From: Cyclobacteriaceae bacterium
GTDB lineage: Bacteria > Bacteroidota > Bacteroidia > Cytophagales > Cyclobacteriaceae
Length of the DNA: 32,734 bases
Direction of reading: 5' to 3'
Assembly (NCBI GenBank): GCA_021604845.1
Contig: BQJT01000021.1
Location: forward strand, 1 to 32,734
Part shown: piece by piece, positions 327-6,140 of the stretch
Layout: each line of letters opens with the position of its first letter
Numbering within the stretch: the first letter of the stretch is position 1
Made by a program: the position numbers and the translations under genes
Notes under the pieces: generated by a model
Databases searched by the model: none
What the model was told of the DNA's origin: nothing
The model's input: only the letters and a program-made list of their open reading frames with translations

Positions 327-492
327 TGTAGGAGAAGGATTCGAACCTCCACGAAGTGGTTAGCCTTAGCACAAATTTAGAGTATTGGTGGTCAACCCCA
401 GGCAAGCCAAGGCGTGCCCATTATGCTATGTTTATCCCATTCTCTTCACCCCCGAGACAGGAGGGCATGTCTGCCAATTTCATCACCCTACA
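327..492 (-). tRNA. tRNA-like RNA with a class II (Leu-like) body, GUC in the anticodon position and a ~98-nt variable region
   Basis: On the minus strand the ends pair as a perfect 7-bp acceptor stem (486-492 with 327-333, one G-U). A Leu-type D-arm follows (stem 481-483 with 467-469, loop with TTGG), then a 5-bp anticodon stem (461-465 with 449-453) with a 7-nt loop whose central bases are GTC (456-458). The T-arm has a 5-bp stem (346-350 with 334-338) and the loop TTCGAAT. U8 and U33 are in place. Between the anticodon and T stems lie 98 nt (351-448) in place of the usual 5-20. No CCA is encoded and the discriminator base would be G. The inserted stretch could form a pseudoknot (414-417 with 369-372, and 409-413 with 363-367). 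It could be a decayed or intron-bearing tRNA, or a non-canonical tRNA-like RNA. The four-arm fold is clear; the function is not known. Confidence 0.6.
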
Positions 493-1320: not shown

Positions 1321-2766
1321 ATGAGCAAAGACGATCAGATATTAGAAGAGCTAACCAGTTCTGAATATAAATACGGATTTGAAACGGCAATTGACGCCGA
1401 TGAAGCTCCCAAAGGGCTAAATGAGGATATCATTAGGTTTATATCTGCTAAGAAAGAGGAACCTGAATGGATGTTGGAATGGCGACTGAATGCATTTGAG
1501 AAATGGAAAACACTCAAGGAACCTAAGTGGCCCAATGTAAAATATCCGGAAATTAACTACCAGGATATCATTTATTACTCTGCAATTAAGCAGAAGGCAA
1601 CTCCCAGCAACCTGGATGAAGTTGATCCGGAGTTAATAGAAACCTTTAAAAAACTTGGTATCTCCCTGGAAGAACAAAAAAGATTGACAGGAGTTGCAGT
1701 TGATGCAGTACTGGACAGCGTTTCGGTGGCAACCACTTTTAAAGACAAGTTGGGGGAGCTGGGTATTATTTTCTGCTCCTTTAGCGAGGCCGTGAAGGAA
1801 CACCCGGAACTGGTAAAAAAATACATGGGATCGGTGGTTCCCGTAAACGATAATTATTTTGCGGCTCTAAACTCCGCAGTTTTTTCTGATGGCTCTTTCG
1901 CATACATACCAAAAGGTGTCCGTTGCCCAATGGAGCTTTCGACCTATTTTCGAATCAATGCAGCCAATACCGGGCAATTCGAACGGACCTTGATTATTGC
2001 TGAAGAAGGCTCATATGTAAGTTACCTTGAAGGTTGTACAGCTCCGATGCGTGATGAAAATCAATTGCACGCAGCAATTGTGGAAATCTACGCAGCCAAA
2101 GATGCCGAAGTGAAGTACTCTACGGTGCAGAATTGGTACCCTGGAAACAAGGAAGGCAAGGGAGGCATTTACAATTTTGTGACCAAAAGAGGTATATGTG
2201 CTGGTTCCGGGTCGAAAATATCATGGACACAGGTAGAAACCGGCAGTGCCATAACCTGGAAATACCCCAGCTGTATTCTGAAAGGTGATAACTCCGTAGG
2301 TGAATTTTACTCAGTGGCTGTGACCAACAATATGCAGCAGGCGGATACAGGTACCAAGATGATACATATTGGCAAGAACACTAAAAGCCGAATTGTATCT
2401 AAGGGTGTTTCTGCAGGAAAAAGCCAGAACAGCTATCGTGGGTTGGTCCAGGTTATGCCCAGAGCGGAAAATGCCAGGAACTTCAGTCAGTGTGACTCGC
2501 TTCTGATGGGTGACAAGTGTGGCGCCCATACCTTCCCATATATTGAAACTGGCAATAAGTCAGCTCAGATCGAACATGAGGCTACCACTTCCAAAATCGG
2601 TGAGGACCAGATCTTTTACTGCAATCAGCGGGGCATTGGCACCGAGGATGCAGTAGCTCTTATTGTAAATGGTTACTGCAAAGAGGTATTGAATCAACTA
2701 CCGATGGAGTTTGCAGTTGAAGCTCAAAAGCTCCTGGCTCTAACATTAGAGGGCAGTGTTGGCTAG
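1321..2766 (+). CDS. sufB: Fe-S cluster assembly scaffold SufB
   Basis: This 481-residue protein is full length for SufB, the scaffold subunit of the SufBCD complex that assembles iron-sulfur clusters in the cytoplasm. Recognisable family blocks include [20 protein letters not shown] in the middle, the YLEGCTAP block of the beta-helix core, and the C-terminal [12 protein letters not shown] and VNGYCKEV blocks with the cysteine implicated in cluster building. The start ATG at 1321 follows a leader with a good -7 promoter element and directly precedes the family N-terminus. It is the first gene of the suf operon, with sufC starting 37 nt downstream. Identification is secure. Confidence 0.97.
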
Positions 2767-2802
2767 TCAGCTGAACACTTTATTTATAAACCATAACATA
2801 TA

Positions 2803-3564
2803 ATGTTAAAAGTTGAAAATTTAAAAGCCTCTATTGAAGGCAAACAAATACTGAACGGGGTCAATTTATCGGTGAACCCCGGAGAGATTCATGCCATCAT
2901 GGGACCAAATGGATCCGGTAAAAGTACCTTGGCTTCAGTGCTGGCAGGAAGGGATTCATACCAGGTAACCGAGGGCAGTATCTCTTTTCTAAACCAGGAC
3001 CTATTGGAAATGGCCCCGGAAGACCGGGCGCGGGAGGGATTATTCCTTGCCTTCCAGTATCCCGTAGAAATACCGGGCGTGAGCACTACTAATTTTCTTA
3101 AGACTGCTGTCAACCAAATTCGCGAGCATCGTGGGCAAGAAGCCCTGGATGCAGTCACCTTCCTCAAGTTGATCAAGGAAAAGATGAAGTTGGTGGAAAT
3201 TGACAATAGCCTGCTTAGCAGAGCTTTGAATGATGGATTTTCAGGAGGAGAGAAAAAACGCAACGAAATCTTTCAAATGGCCGTACTTGAACCACGTCTG
3301 GCAATTCTGGATGAAACAGACTCCGGATTGGACATTGATGCCCTGAGAATTGTTGCCAATGGAGTTAACACTCTTAGAAACAAAGATAATGCTACTATTG
3401 TAGTAACCCATTATCAGCGGCTATTGGATTACATCATTCCGGATTTTGTTCACGTATTGTACAACGGCCGTATCGTGAAATCAGGCACCAAGGAACTAGC
3501 TAAAAAACTTGAGGAAAAAGGATACGATTGGATCCGGGAAAACGAAACCACCATTGCCGGTTGA
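2803..3564 (+). CDS. sufC: Fe-S assembly ATPase SufC
   Basis: SufC is the ABC-type ATPase of the SufBCD scaffold complex; it is cytoplasmic and not a transporter. The 253-residue protein has Walker A GPNGSGKST (about residues 35-43), the SufC-type signature FSGGEKKRNEI, Walker B LAILDETDSGLD and the switch histidine in VVTHYQRLL. Length and motifs are all as expected. It lies between sufB and sufD, 7 nt before the chosen sufD start. Confidence 0.97.
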   Translation: MLKVENLKASIEGKQILNGVNLSVNPGEIHAIMGPNGSGKSTLASVLAGRDSYQVTEGSISFLNQDLLEMAPEDRAREGLFLAFQYPVEIPGVSTTNFLKTAVNQIREHRGQEALDAVTFLKLIKEKMKLVEIDNSLLSRALNDGFSGGEKKRNEIFQMAVLEPRLAILDETDSGLDIDALRIVANGVNTLRNKDNATIVVTHYQRLLDYIIPDFVHVLYNGRIVKSGTKELAKKLEEKGYDWIRENETTIAG

Positions 3565-3571
3565 TCCAGCT

Positions 3572-4900
3572 ATGAAAACAACAGAACAAAATCTAAGAGA
3601 CCATTTTACTGAGCAATTTTCGGATTTGACCCAATCTCTAAACGGGGGACAGGTACCGGAGATTAAGCAGTTGCGATCAGAGGCCATCAAAGCTTTTACC
3701 CAAAAAGGGTTCCCACAAGGCAAAGAAGAAGAGTATAAATATACTCCTATCACAAAAGCGCTTTTAAGATCTGAGATAAACCTCCAAAGCCCTGCGGAAG
3801 TAAGCATGATTCCGCCCTTTAATGAACATTTGTTGCCTGAGCTAAAAGGACATATTTTGGTTTTTTGGAATGGAAGATTAGTATACAGTTCTGAAGATTT
3901 TCCTGAAAGCCTGGAGGTACAGCAGATGGATCAACTGGGTGCTGACAGGGAAGATTTGATGGTGAAGTATTTTGGAAAAATCAGTAATTATAAAAAAGAT
4001 GCATTTGCGGCGTTAAACACTGCCCTGTTTAATCATGGCAGCCTGATCACTGTAAAAGAAAACAGCAAAGTGGATCTACCGGTGATCATCTATCATTTAT
4101 CTGATGCCAGAAACGGCCTGGTTTATTCGCAGACCCGTCACCTGGTAGTAGTTGAGAAGAATGCGCAGGTAACACTGGTTGAAATATGCAAAAACCTCAC
4201 TCCGAAGCAGCAGAATTTTCATAATACAGTATCCGAAATTTACCTTAAAGAACAGGCTAAGCTTCAACTTAACAAGGTTCAAACAGGGTGTTCCGGAATG
4301 ATATTGGTAGACAATACCGATATCAATCAGCTAGAAGGTAGTGAGTTAATGTGCAACACCATAACCACCAACGGTACCATTGTCAGAAATAATCTGAACA
4401 TTACCATTGATGGGATGGATTGTACCTCTCACATGAATGGACTGTATCTGGCCAAAGGAACTGACCATATAGACAATCATACCCTGGTCGACCATCGGAT
4501 TGCTAACTCGTTCAGTGATGAGCTTTACAAAGGAATCATTGATGACTCAGCGACCGGAGTTTTTAATGGTAAGATTTACGTACAGCCCGATGCACAAAAA
4601 ACCAATGCCTTTCAATCAAACAAGAATATCCTGTTGTCTGACAAGGCCAGCATGAATACCAAGCCACAGCTGGAAATTTGGGCTGATGACGTCAAATGTT
4701 CGCACGGGGCCACAACCGGTCAGATCGATGCAGAACAGGTATTTTACTTAAGAACACGCGGGCTGGATGAGCAGCAGGCCAAAGGTCTTTTATTATATGC
4801 ATTTGCCACCGAATTCCTGGAGCACATATCACTCCCGGCACTAAGTGACTACTTAGAGCAGGTAATTGCGGACAGACTCTACAGAAAAATTGATGAGTAA
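3572..4900 (+). CDS. sufD: Fe-S assembly protein SufD
   Basis: SufD is the SufB paralogue that forms the SufB-SufD heterodimer needed for iron entry in cluster assembly. This 442-residue protein shows the C-terminal beta-helix and helical blocks of the family, including VKCSHGATTGQID, with the functionally important histidine, and RTRGLDEQQAKGLLLYAFA. The open frame extends back to 3509 inside sufC, but those 21 residues read through the sufC C-terminus, and the ATG at 3572, 7 nt after the sufC stop, gives a normal N-terminus. Its stop overlaps the start of sufS. Confidence 0.95.
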   Translation: MKTTEQNLRDHFTEQFSDLTQSLNGGQVPEIKQLRSEAIKAFTQKGFPQGKEEEYKYTPITKALLRSEINLQSPAEVSMIPPFNEHLLPELKGHILVFWNGRLVYSSEDFPESLEVQQMDQLGADREDLMVKYFGKISNYKKDAFAALNTALFNHGSLITVKENSKVDLPVIIYHLSDARNGLVYSQTRHLVVVEKNAQVTLVEICKNLTPKQQNFHNTVSEIYLKEQAKLQLNKVQTGCSGMILVDNTDINQLEGSELMCNTITTNGTIVRNNLNITIDGMDCTSHMNGLYLAKGTDHIDNHTLVDHRIANSFSDELYKGIIDDSATGVFNGKIYVQPDAQKTNAFQSNKNILLSDKASMNTKPQLEIWADDVKCSHGATTGQIDAEQVFYLRTRGLDEQQAKGLLLYAFATEFLEHISLPALSDYLEQVIADRLYRKIDE

Positions 4901-6140
4901 TTCAGGTCATATCAGTCAAATCGACAATCTGACGCAAATCAGAGCGGAGTTTCCAATCCTGCACCAGCAGGTGAACGGCAAACCCCTGGTCTATTTTGAC
5001 AATGCAGCCAGCAATCAAAAGCCGCTTTCAGTATTGAATGCACTGGATCATTATTACCGGAATGATCACGCTAATATTCATCGGGGGATCCACACATTGG
5101 CTGAAAGGGCGACTGAAGCTTATGAATTAAGTCGTAAACGGACGGCTGAGTTCATCAATGCGGCGGAACCTGAAGAGATCATTTTCACCAGTGGAACCAC
5201 CGAGGGATTAAATCTGGTAGCATCTACTTATGGCAGAAAATTACTTAAGCCAGGTGACGAAGTCCTGATCACTAACATGGAACACCACAGCAACATTGTT
5301 CCCTGGCAAATGTTGTGTGAAGAGAAAGACCTTAAGTTAAAAGTGTTGCCTTTACGAGACAATGGCGAAGTTAAATGGGAACTGCTGGATTCTATGCTTA
5401 CCGAACGCACTCGGATTGTGTCGATCGTTCATGCCTCAAATTCACTGGGGACTATTAATCCTATAAGTGAGCTCAGTGATAAAGTACACCAGGCAGGAGC
5501 CATCCTGGTGGTGGATGGTGCACAGGCCTCAGCTCACCTGGAGATTGATGTCCAGGCATTGAATTGTGATTTCTATGCATTGTCCTCACATAAAATGTAC
5601 GGTCCCACCGGGGTTGGAGTGCTTTATGGAAAAAGAAAGTGGTTGGAGAAAATGCCCCCTTACAAGGGTGGAGGTGAAATGATAAAAGAAGTCACTCTGG
5701 AGAAAACCACTTATAGCGACATACCTCATAAATTTGAAGCTGGTACTCCTAATATAGCGGATGTAGTGGCTTTTAAAACCGCCATCGAATTTATTGATGA
5801 GATCGGCAAGAATACCATTATTCAGCATGAAAACAAGTTGCTTAACCATGCCCACGCCGAGTTGGAGGCAATTGATGGACTAAGACTTATCGGCACAGCT
5901 GCTGAAAAGGTAGGTGTTGTTTCCTTTGTTGTTGACGGTGTACATCATTTTGATCTTGGCGTTATGCTAGACACCAAAGGGATAGCAGTTAGAACTGGTC
6001 ACCATTGTACCCAACCCCTGATGGAGTGCTATGGACTCGAAGGAACCGTGAGGGCTTCGTTTTCTGTTTACAATACAATTGAAGAAGTAGACTTGCTGGT
6101 TGAATCTTTGGATGCCATTGTAAAGAAACTTAGAAATTGA
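4893..6140 (+). CDS. sufS: cysteine desulfurase SufS
   Basis: SufS is a PLP-dependent group II cysteine desulfurase that takes sulfur from cysteine and passes it to SufE. With the start at 4893 it has 415 residues, normal for the family. The PLP lysine is K234 in SSHKMYGPTG, the PLP-phosphate contacts are in FTSGTTEGLN, and the catalytic cysteine is C372 in RTGHHCTQP. The ATG at 4893 sits inside the end of sufD (8-nt overlap), which implies coupled translation; the upstream in-frame ATG at 4866 would overlap sufD further and is less likely. The next gene, sufE, encodes its sulfur acceptor. Confidence 0.96.
   Translation: MSNSGHISQIDNLTQIRAEFPILHQQVNGKPLVYFDNAASNQKPLSVLNALDHYYRNDHANIHRGIHTLAERATEAYELSRKRTAEFINAAEPEEIIFTSGTTEGLNLVASTYGRKLLKPGDEVLITNMEHHSNIVPWQMLCEEKDLKLKVLPLRDNGEVKWELLDSMLTERTRIVSIVHASNSLGTINPISELSDKVHQAGAILVVDGAQASAHLEIDVQALNCDFYALSSHKMYGPTGVGVLYGKRKWLEKMPPYKGGGEMIKEVTLEKTTYSDIPHKFEAGTPNIADVVAFKTAIEFIDEIGKNTIIQHENKLLNHAHAELEAIDGLRLIGTAAEKVGVVSFVVDGVHHFDLGVMLDTKGIAVRTGHHCTQPLMECYGLEGTVRASFSVYNTIEEVDLLVESLDAIVKKLRN

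Follow-up and report, generated by a model that had tools for sequence, protein, structure and literature searches.

Staphylococci possess dedicated non-coding tRNAs for cell-wall synthesis, and in Deinococcus, Thermus and Bdellovibrio asparagine is made on tRNA-Asn by a non-discriminating AspRS together with GatCAB. Bacterial GatCAB recognizes the pair U1-A72, as described in passages of PMC4206432 and PMC9976931, and the former source, in the part considered here, places the tRNA-Asn route likewise in genomes with AsnRS and GlnRS and asks why Bacteroidota that have both synthetases keep GatCAB. In their architecture, the closest described RNAs are tRNA-Sec, selC-type tRNA-Cys and allo-tRNAs, which are class II molecules with enlarged arms and lengthened acceptor/anticodon stems, some of them unusable in translation according to a portion of PMC7609411, and tmRNA with its tRNA-like ends. 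On the regulatory side, asnC and asnA of E. coli are divergent genes, and AsnC activates asnA, less so with asparagine (excerpts of PMC8707732).

In the 32,734-nucleotide stretch of Cyclobacteriaceae DNA analysed here (the window), the minus strand from position 492 to 326 reads directly as a succession of class II tRNA-type arms in which the anticodon and T stems lie 98 nt apart. The first-pass annotation had described a tRNA-like RNA in which about 98 nt replace the variable arm, and direct reading recovers all of its arms; the location was correct, but the span of 327–492 (166 nt) omitted G73 at 326, and the RNA, as also supported by family conservation, extends from U1 (492) to G73 (326) over 167 nt. 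Its 5' acceptor strand UGUAGGG (486–492, this and the following elements all being on the minus strand) forms seven pairs with UCCUACA, one of them G·U, which include U1-A72, G2-C71 and U3-A70. Further along are U8 and G9, a D-stem AUG/CAU and an anticodon arm CCCUC-CUGUCUC-GGGGG (449–465), whose loop (460–454) contains G34, U35, C36, U37 and C38. The giant variable arm of 98 nt (351–448) consists of a closing stem GAAG/CUUC, an inner helix UGG/CCA, an internal loop GAUAAA/CUAA and a variable distal part that carries GGUUGACCAC. It is followed by the T-arm GGAGG-UUCGAAU-CCUUC (334–350), assigned from direct reading and alignment, and by a 3' segment (325–333) comprising the acceptor strand, G73 (326) and an encoded C74 (325), with CCA not being encoded. 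The acceptor, D, anticodon and T arms and the 3' end follow the format of the genome's tRNAs, where the discriminator and C74 are gene-encoded in 23/23 ordinary tRNA genes inspected, as they are in the RNA.

The RNA shares tRNA-like ends with tmRNA but, unlike the latter, has full D and anticodon arms. It also differs from tRNA-Sec, selC-type tRNA-Cys and allo-tRNAs in its acceptor and T lengths of 7/5, with the enlargement residing in the variable arm (39–130 nt across the family), and in the fact that it tracks GatB and AsnC. ARAGORN made no tRNA call in the window and did not call the RNA a tmRNA either, and in the comparison with Rfam that had been proposed in the first pass, no family reached its gathering score for the window RNA, the best tRNA-type match being tRNA-Sec (RF01852) with 16 bits versus a gathering score of 47. 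Rfam matches are absent also for ten further loci carrying copies. No Rfam model thus matches this structured RNA family, and in the open-licence PMC literature no title or abstract among the matches listed describes this RNA. Single-sequence folding of the window RNA is unconvincing by itself (z −0.24).

The RNA looks like an independent gene with promoter and terminator signals of its own, as had been suggested earlier. We find TAACTTTG, a TAnnTTTG promoter element (−7) as is typical of Bacteroidota, at 510–517 and an intrinsic terminator hairpin followed by a T run at about 268–299, both read directly on the minus strand. The two signals recur in the family, with TAnnTTTG located within 80 nt upstream, at varying distance, in 115/198 host copies (10.5 in shuffles) and a terminator-like site downstream in 113/198 (14 in shuffles), while viral copies show the former in 5/28 and the latter in 1/28 cases.

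The distribution of the RNA was characterized by different searches. BLAST against 59 related genomes found full or nearly full-length matches of 90–91% in two of four genomes of the same genus and a 99% match cut by the contig end in a third, with the best match in the fourth (G003) having an E of only 0.059. Genomes from other families showed 69–75% identity along the greater part of the query, or else two conserved blocks separated by a spacer of variable length, and several related genomes contain tandem copies. A covariance model (R1), as had been proposed for Cytophagales, was applied to 296 genomes of the phylum and 396 of the class and separates two kinds of gene, family members scoring about 75 bits or higher and ordinary Leu-like tRNA genes, about 84 nt in length, at most 61 bits, with a single intermediate of 71 bits and 76 nt in the genome G048. 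By this model, with an E of 1e-18 and strict filters (four of the RNA-negative genomes were rechecked with looser filters), the RNA is found in 74/396 class genomes and 48/199 genera, and within the class sample in 18 of 19 genomes of its own order, counting G048 and with G635 as the miss. The intermediate (L235, 1501–1576) is a minimal relative of 76 nt without giant arm that retains the same acceptor start, U1-A72, G73, C74 and a CUAUCUC loop; the 3 kb of sequence covered around it contain no AsnC-like gene. This relative suggests that the arm is either dispensable or was lost. A pattern scan retrieved at least 119 stretches in named genomes and 55 in IMG/VR, the contigs of which are predicted viral. 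The 80 listed stretches come chiefly from Cytophagales and Saprospiraceae, and also from metagenome-assembled genomes named Chitinophagales, Chitinophagaceae, Flavobacteriales and Flavobacteriaceae. As the matches listed include cultured genera (Algoriphagus, Cyclobacterium, Dyadobacter, Hymenobacter, Pontibacter, Flammeovirga, Portibacter and others), ideas on the function of the RNA are directly testable. In Marinoscillum furvescens (L053 and L007, G011:C13:38484–44202), several full copies occur together with an array of partial copies, made up of over ten repeats at intervals of about 300 nt, whose similarity is confined to the 3' acceptor strand of the RNA and the stretch downstream of it.

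The family shows strong conservation of its structure. In an alignment of 44 sequences, 99.5% of the structure cells pair, compared to 91.6% when the 3' letters are shuffled and 51–65% when partners are slid, and all five measures lie above every one of 500 shuffles. For a broader view we used 241 copies (of 246 places) taken from the first 204 loci, which are non-independent since some genomes were included twice. A 7-bp acceptor is found in 238/241 copies when its start is picked for best pairing; in this analysis, counts of the discriminator and of pair 1-72 cover 226 of the 241. The stem closing the giant arm is formed in 225/228 copies, against a mean of 103 and a maximum of 118 in shuffles with the same freedom of three offsets, and in 210 against 97 with one fixed offset. 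Within the arm, the inner 3-bp helix is complete in 132 of the 209 copies (out of 225) that were scored, with a mean of 56 and a maximum of 72 in shuffles, and the internal loop beside it usually combines a GAUAAA-like strand with CUAA opposite (196/209). The covariation in 351–448 that had been suggested as a check is thus found in the closing stem, and it leaves the idea of a non-standard intron, raised in the first pass, unsupported because the very stem that closes the insert covaries. Decay of a tRNA, or an intron in an otherwise ordinary one, would explain why tRNA finders miss the RNA, but the 7-bp acceptor, the covarying closing stem, the poor conservation of U33 described below and the family-wide conservation leave next to no room for such an explanation, and both the intron and the pseudogene were rejected. 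That we are looking at a real, conserved RNA family is, in our view, virtually certain.

The distal part of the arm, compared in 212 distinct copies, varies. A GAGCUC loop is frequent in short forms, among them many short host copies, long forms often carry GGUUGACCAC, and many viral forms contain variable palindromes of 8–10 nt. Homodimerization via the terminal loop was considered and rejected as a feature of the family because other host copies have tips of the GCAA or GUAA type. In viral copies, the distal hairpins display palindromes of changing sequence such as GCCGGCCGGC, TCCTGCAGGA and TTGTGCACAA (L152, L165, L168, L186 and L202), an extra D-loop hairpin is present in some copies and is palindromic in some viral ones (L155), and dimerization of the viral palindromic hairpins by kissing loops is possible.

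The conserved bases were analysed in 228 distinct copies that contain U35, C36 and C38 and whose variable region measures 30 nt or more; only 28 of these copies are viral because those with enlarged D-arms drop out. G73, C74 and G2-C71 are present in all 228 of these, U1-A72 in 225 and G34 in 208. In a loop-independent scan, where loci were not fetched by the sequence of the loop, U35, C36 and C38 were found in 81/81 genuine copies and G34 in 77/81, after 8 of 89 candidates had been excluded by eye as wrong folds (seven outside any copy and one misreading the genuine copy at L014). The family does not display the combination of U33 and purine 37 found in ordinary decoding tRNAs. Position 33 is T in 199, G in 16, C in 7 and A in 6 of the 228 copies, and position 37 is T in 222, G in 4 and C in 2, thus a pyrimidine in 224; the window copy has U33 followed by U37. 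The annotation had singled out U37, U1-A72 and G73 as telling bases, which their conservation throughout the family bears out, and its suggestion of a regulatory or mimic tRNA named the right class. It had also viewed GUC as an Asp-type anticodon. This triplet is indeed present but reads better as a set of charging determinants than as a decoder, since position 33 is not U in 29/228 copies, position 37 is rarely a purine and an ordinary tRNA-Asp is present among the 31 tRNA genes found in this genome, which also include two tRNA-Leu.

PMC9976931 describes G73, G34, U35, C36 and C38 as strong determinants of aspartate identity in bacteria, and all five are present in the window copy. The same source lists G10 and G1-C72 of bacterial tRNA-Asp as determinants or crucial. 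Neither is a feature of the RNA, which counts against aspartate charging: position 10 varies between A, U and G, and the first pair is U1-A72. In 20/228 copies G34 is replaced by A, C or U, including those of Hymenobacter, where five loci (L045, L078, L096, L115 and L129) have a CUCUCUC loop with C34 instead of G34, and any model of charging by AspRS must account for them. Leucine charging was discarded, as the identity of bacterial tRNA-Leu includes A73 (again in PMC9976931), in contrast to G73 of the RNA. Charging with serine would be compatible with the body of the molecule but leave the fixed loop unexplained. AspRS was found in 17/17 RNA-positive genomes tested.

If the RNA is a substrate of GatCAB, its carriers must keep the enzyme. 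We have thus chosen 60 genomes according to the presence or absence of the RNA, taking 31 out of the 74 known positives and 29 negatives, and judged the presence of GatCAB by GatB, with GlnRS, AsnRS, AsnB-like proteins and AsnA assessed in the same set. Among these chosen genomes, GatB is present in 31/31 RNA-positive and 14/29 RNA-negative ones, and 12 of the latter 14 lack GlnRS, which would explain their GatB because without GlnRS, GatCAB is needed for Gln-tRNA. The informative genomes are those that have both GlnRS and AsnRS, where GatCAB should therefore be dispensable; here GatB is found in 22/22 RNA-positive compared to 2/16 RNA-negative cases (Fisher 1.2e-8, a value that ignores shared ancestry). 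The contrast recurs within single families, with three RNA-positive genomes with GatB and two RNA-negative ones without in f22, and six and two, respectively, in f23. The two exceptions, G635 and G361, are RNA-negative genomes with GlnRS, AsnRS and GatB; G635 is a sister of the RNA-positive G304, and the RNA may have been overlooked there.

A similar pattern might arise if the RNA were not a carrier of amino acids but a scaffold or sensor, which binds AspRS and GatCAB to assemble, titrate or report on them. Asparagine synthesis would then take place on ordinary tRNA-Asn with the help of a non-discriminating AspRS, as has been demonstrated in Bdellovibrio. A scaffold or sensor role would account for the same determinants, the same co-occurrence and the linkage to AsnC described below, the tRNA-Asn of this genome likewise starts with U1-A72, and PMC4206432, in the passages considered, proposes the tRNA-Asn route for genera with AsnRS, GlnRS and GatCAB that include some Bacteroidetes. 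A perfect acceptor stem with G73 and C74 in the 3' format of a tRNA, however, exceeds what a scaffold would need, and we regard this explanation as unlikely. A histidine at the position equivalent to E. coli L30 of AspRS marks non-discriminating enzymes. It is found in 0/25 genomes, each of which encodes one full-length bacterial AspRS, and although this would speak against the tRNA-Asn route, the residue is undecisive because RNA-positive and RNA-negative genomes do not differ in it.

The relationship to asparagine is also apparent in the distribution of asparagine synthetases. The asparagine synthase B equivalog NF006949 occurs in 52/396 class genomes, with 0/74 in RNA-positive and 52/322 in RNA-negative ones (Fisher 1.3e-5, shared ancestry being ignored; both scans were taken as covering the same 396 genomes, and all genome handles shown agree). 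AsnA is present in 5 of the 60 chosen genomes, two of them RNA-positive (2/31). What speaks against a dedicated role of the RNA in making asparagine is that AsnB-like proteins above the cut-off of TIGR01536 are found in 27/31 RNA-positive genomes, including two in the genome described here, whereas G046, G304, G324 and G351 carry the RNA without AsnA and without an AsnB-like match above cut-off, and in some carriers the RNA route could thus be the only source of asparagine. A separate case is G075, an RNA-negative genome with GlnRS and AsnRS that lacks GatB, AsnA and any match to TIGR01536 and is possibly an asparagine auxotroph.

The genomic neighbourhood provides another line of evidence. 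Divergent from the RNA and 135 nt away from it, at 627–1094 on the plus strand, is a gene overlooked in the first pass, whose product is a transcription regulator with E. coli AsnC as best PDB match (6.5e-35; Lrp, 4.6e-14) and with the AsnC model NF008384 as best of 11 matching NCBIfam families. We call it AsnC-like because its 172 bits are below the cut-off of 227. A homologue is located within 2 kb of the RNA in 87/159 host loci and in 85/145 of those with at least 800 nt of upstream sequence, and in 104/104 copies having one within 2.5 kb it is upstream and divergent, with a median gap of 160.5 nt. The remaining 60 of these 145 host loci, including some of Algoriphagus, Cyclobacterium, Belliella and Indibacter, lack the gene within 2 kb and have other neighbours. 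This organization has an AsnC-type regulator divergent from an asparagine-making gene in common with the asnC-asnA pair of E. coli as portrayed in the excerpts of PMC8707732, but the divergent gene here is the RNA and not asparagine synthetase A, and neither AsnA nor AsnB was found beside the AsnC-like gene in 11 loci. Downstream of the AsnC-like gene, from 1321–6140 on, the window contains a suf cluster (SufB, SufC, SufD and SufS-like by ORF reading), and in 34/159 host loci sufB is at most 3 kb away from the RNA.

The neighbourhood also bears on the proposal that the RNA is a charged non-decoding tRNA donating aspartate or asparagine to a non-ribosomal acceptor such as a lipid, the cell wall or a peptide. 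This would suit a molecule with charging determinants that does not decode, and the tRNAs of staphylococcal cell-wall synthesis offer a precedent. By ORF reading of ten viral and twelve AsnC-less host loci, no partner protein, and in particular no transferase, is evident beside the RNA, and the inverse relationship with asparagine synthase B and the AsnC linkage favour asparagine supply itself, which makes a donor role improbable. From the independent correlative lines provided by the conserved bases, GatB, AsnB and AsnC, we consider it likely that the RNA is tied to GatCAB and asparagine.

Viral copies are frequently found in the context of other tRNA genes. ARAGORN detects at least one tRNA or tmRNA gene in 35/55 viral stretches and none in 20, with the largest array (L165) encoding 25 tRNAs and a tmRNA on 13 kb. 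A tRNA-Asp(gtc) gene accompanies the RNA in seven viral arrays, and a tmRNA is found alongside in eight, in addition to one permuted tmRNA call; arrays that combine tRNAs, tmRNA and the RNA are L165, L161, L166, L178, L188, L191, L195 and L175. In a comparison with INPHARED phages, two viral copies remained unmatched at an E of 0.01, and a search with a whole viral stretch mostly matched tRNA genes and was uninformative on the RNA. The association with viral tRNA genes, including tRNA-Asp(gtc), would be in line with a phage-related function kept by hosts, where the RNA acts as a decoy for tRNA-cutting defences or as part of a phage translation kit. Host copies, however, adjoin AsnC-like genes outside of tRNA arrays and are near-universal in the order, and since a phage function would leave the tie to GatB and AsnB unexplained, we find it even harder to credit than a donor role. 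Asparagine supply does not by itself explain viral carriage; viruses may replace a host RNA lost in infection or provide asparagine.

We propose that AspRS and GatCAB use the RNA as a dedicated tRNA-like adaptor on which they make asparagine and which takes no part in decoding, a reading to which we assign a probability of roughly 0.6. In such a mechanism, the RNA would be matured like the tRNAs of the cell and charged with aspartate by AspRS via G34, U35, C36, C38 and G73, and GatCAB would then amidate the bound aspartate to asparagine via U1-A72. This conversion of aspartate on the RNA is moderately probable. The asparagine would subsequently be released, most simply, if we extend the argument further, as free amino acid for AsnRS and metabolism. 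The relaxed U33, the pyrimidine at 37 and the giant arm would exclude the RNA from decoding, and therefore no asparagine would be inserted at aspartate codons. Finally, the divergent AsnC-like regulator might adjust the level of the RNA to asparagine, as E. coli AsnC does with asnA. The process would be of a known kind, tRNA-dependent asparagine synthesis, and share both enzymes and the U1-A72 handle with the tRNA-Asn route. It would differ in its proposed carrier, a separate RNA that combines the anticodon determinants of tRNA-Asp with the first pair of tRNA-Asn, lacks decoding features and contains a giant arm, and it would make a non-discriminating AspRS unnecessary; the dedicated non-decoding carrier is what we propose as new. 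For the wider picture of asparagine as a primary amino acid with a dedicated RNA cofactor of its own, outside of decoding, with an AsnC-like feedback regulator that targets the RNA gene and with carriage by viruses, we see the odds as evenly balanced.

If the proposal is correct, it would explain why Bacteroidota having both GlnRS and AsnRS retain GatCAB, and the RNA would represent a tRNA that has left translation and now serves as a metabolic cofactor. Its presence in viral tRNA arrays suggests that the RNA, or the supply of asparagine, counts during infection.
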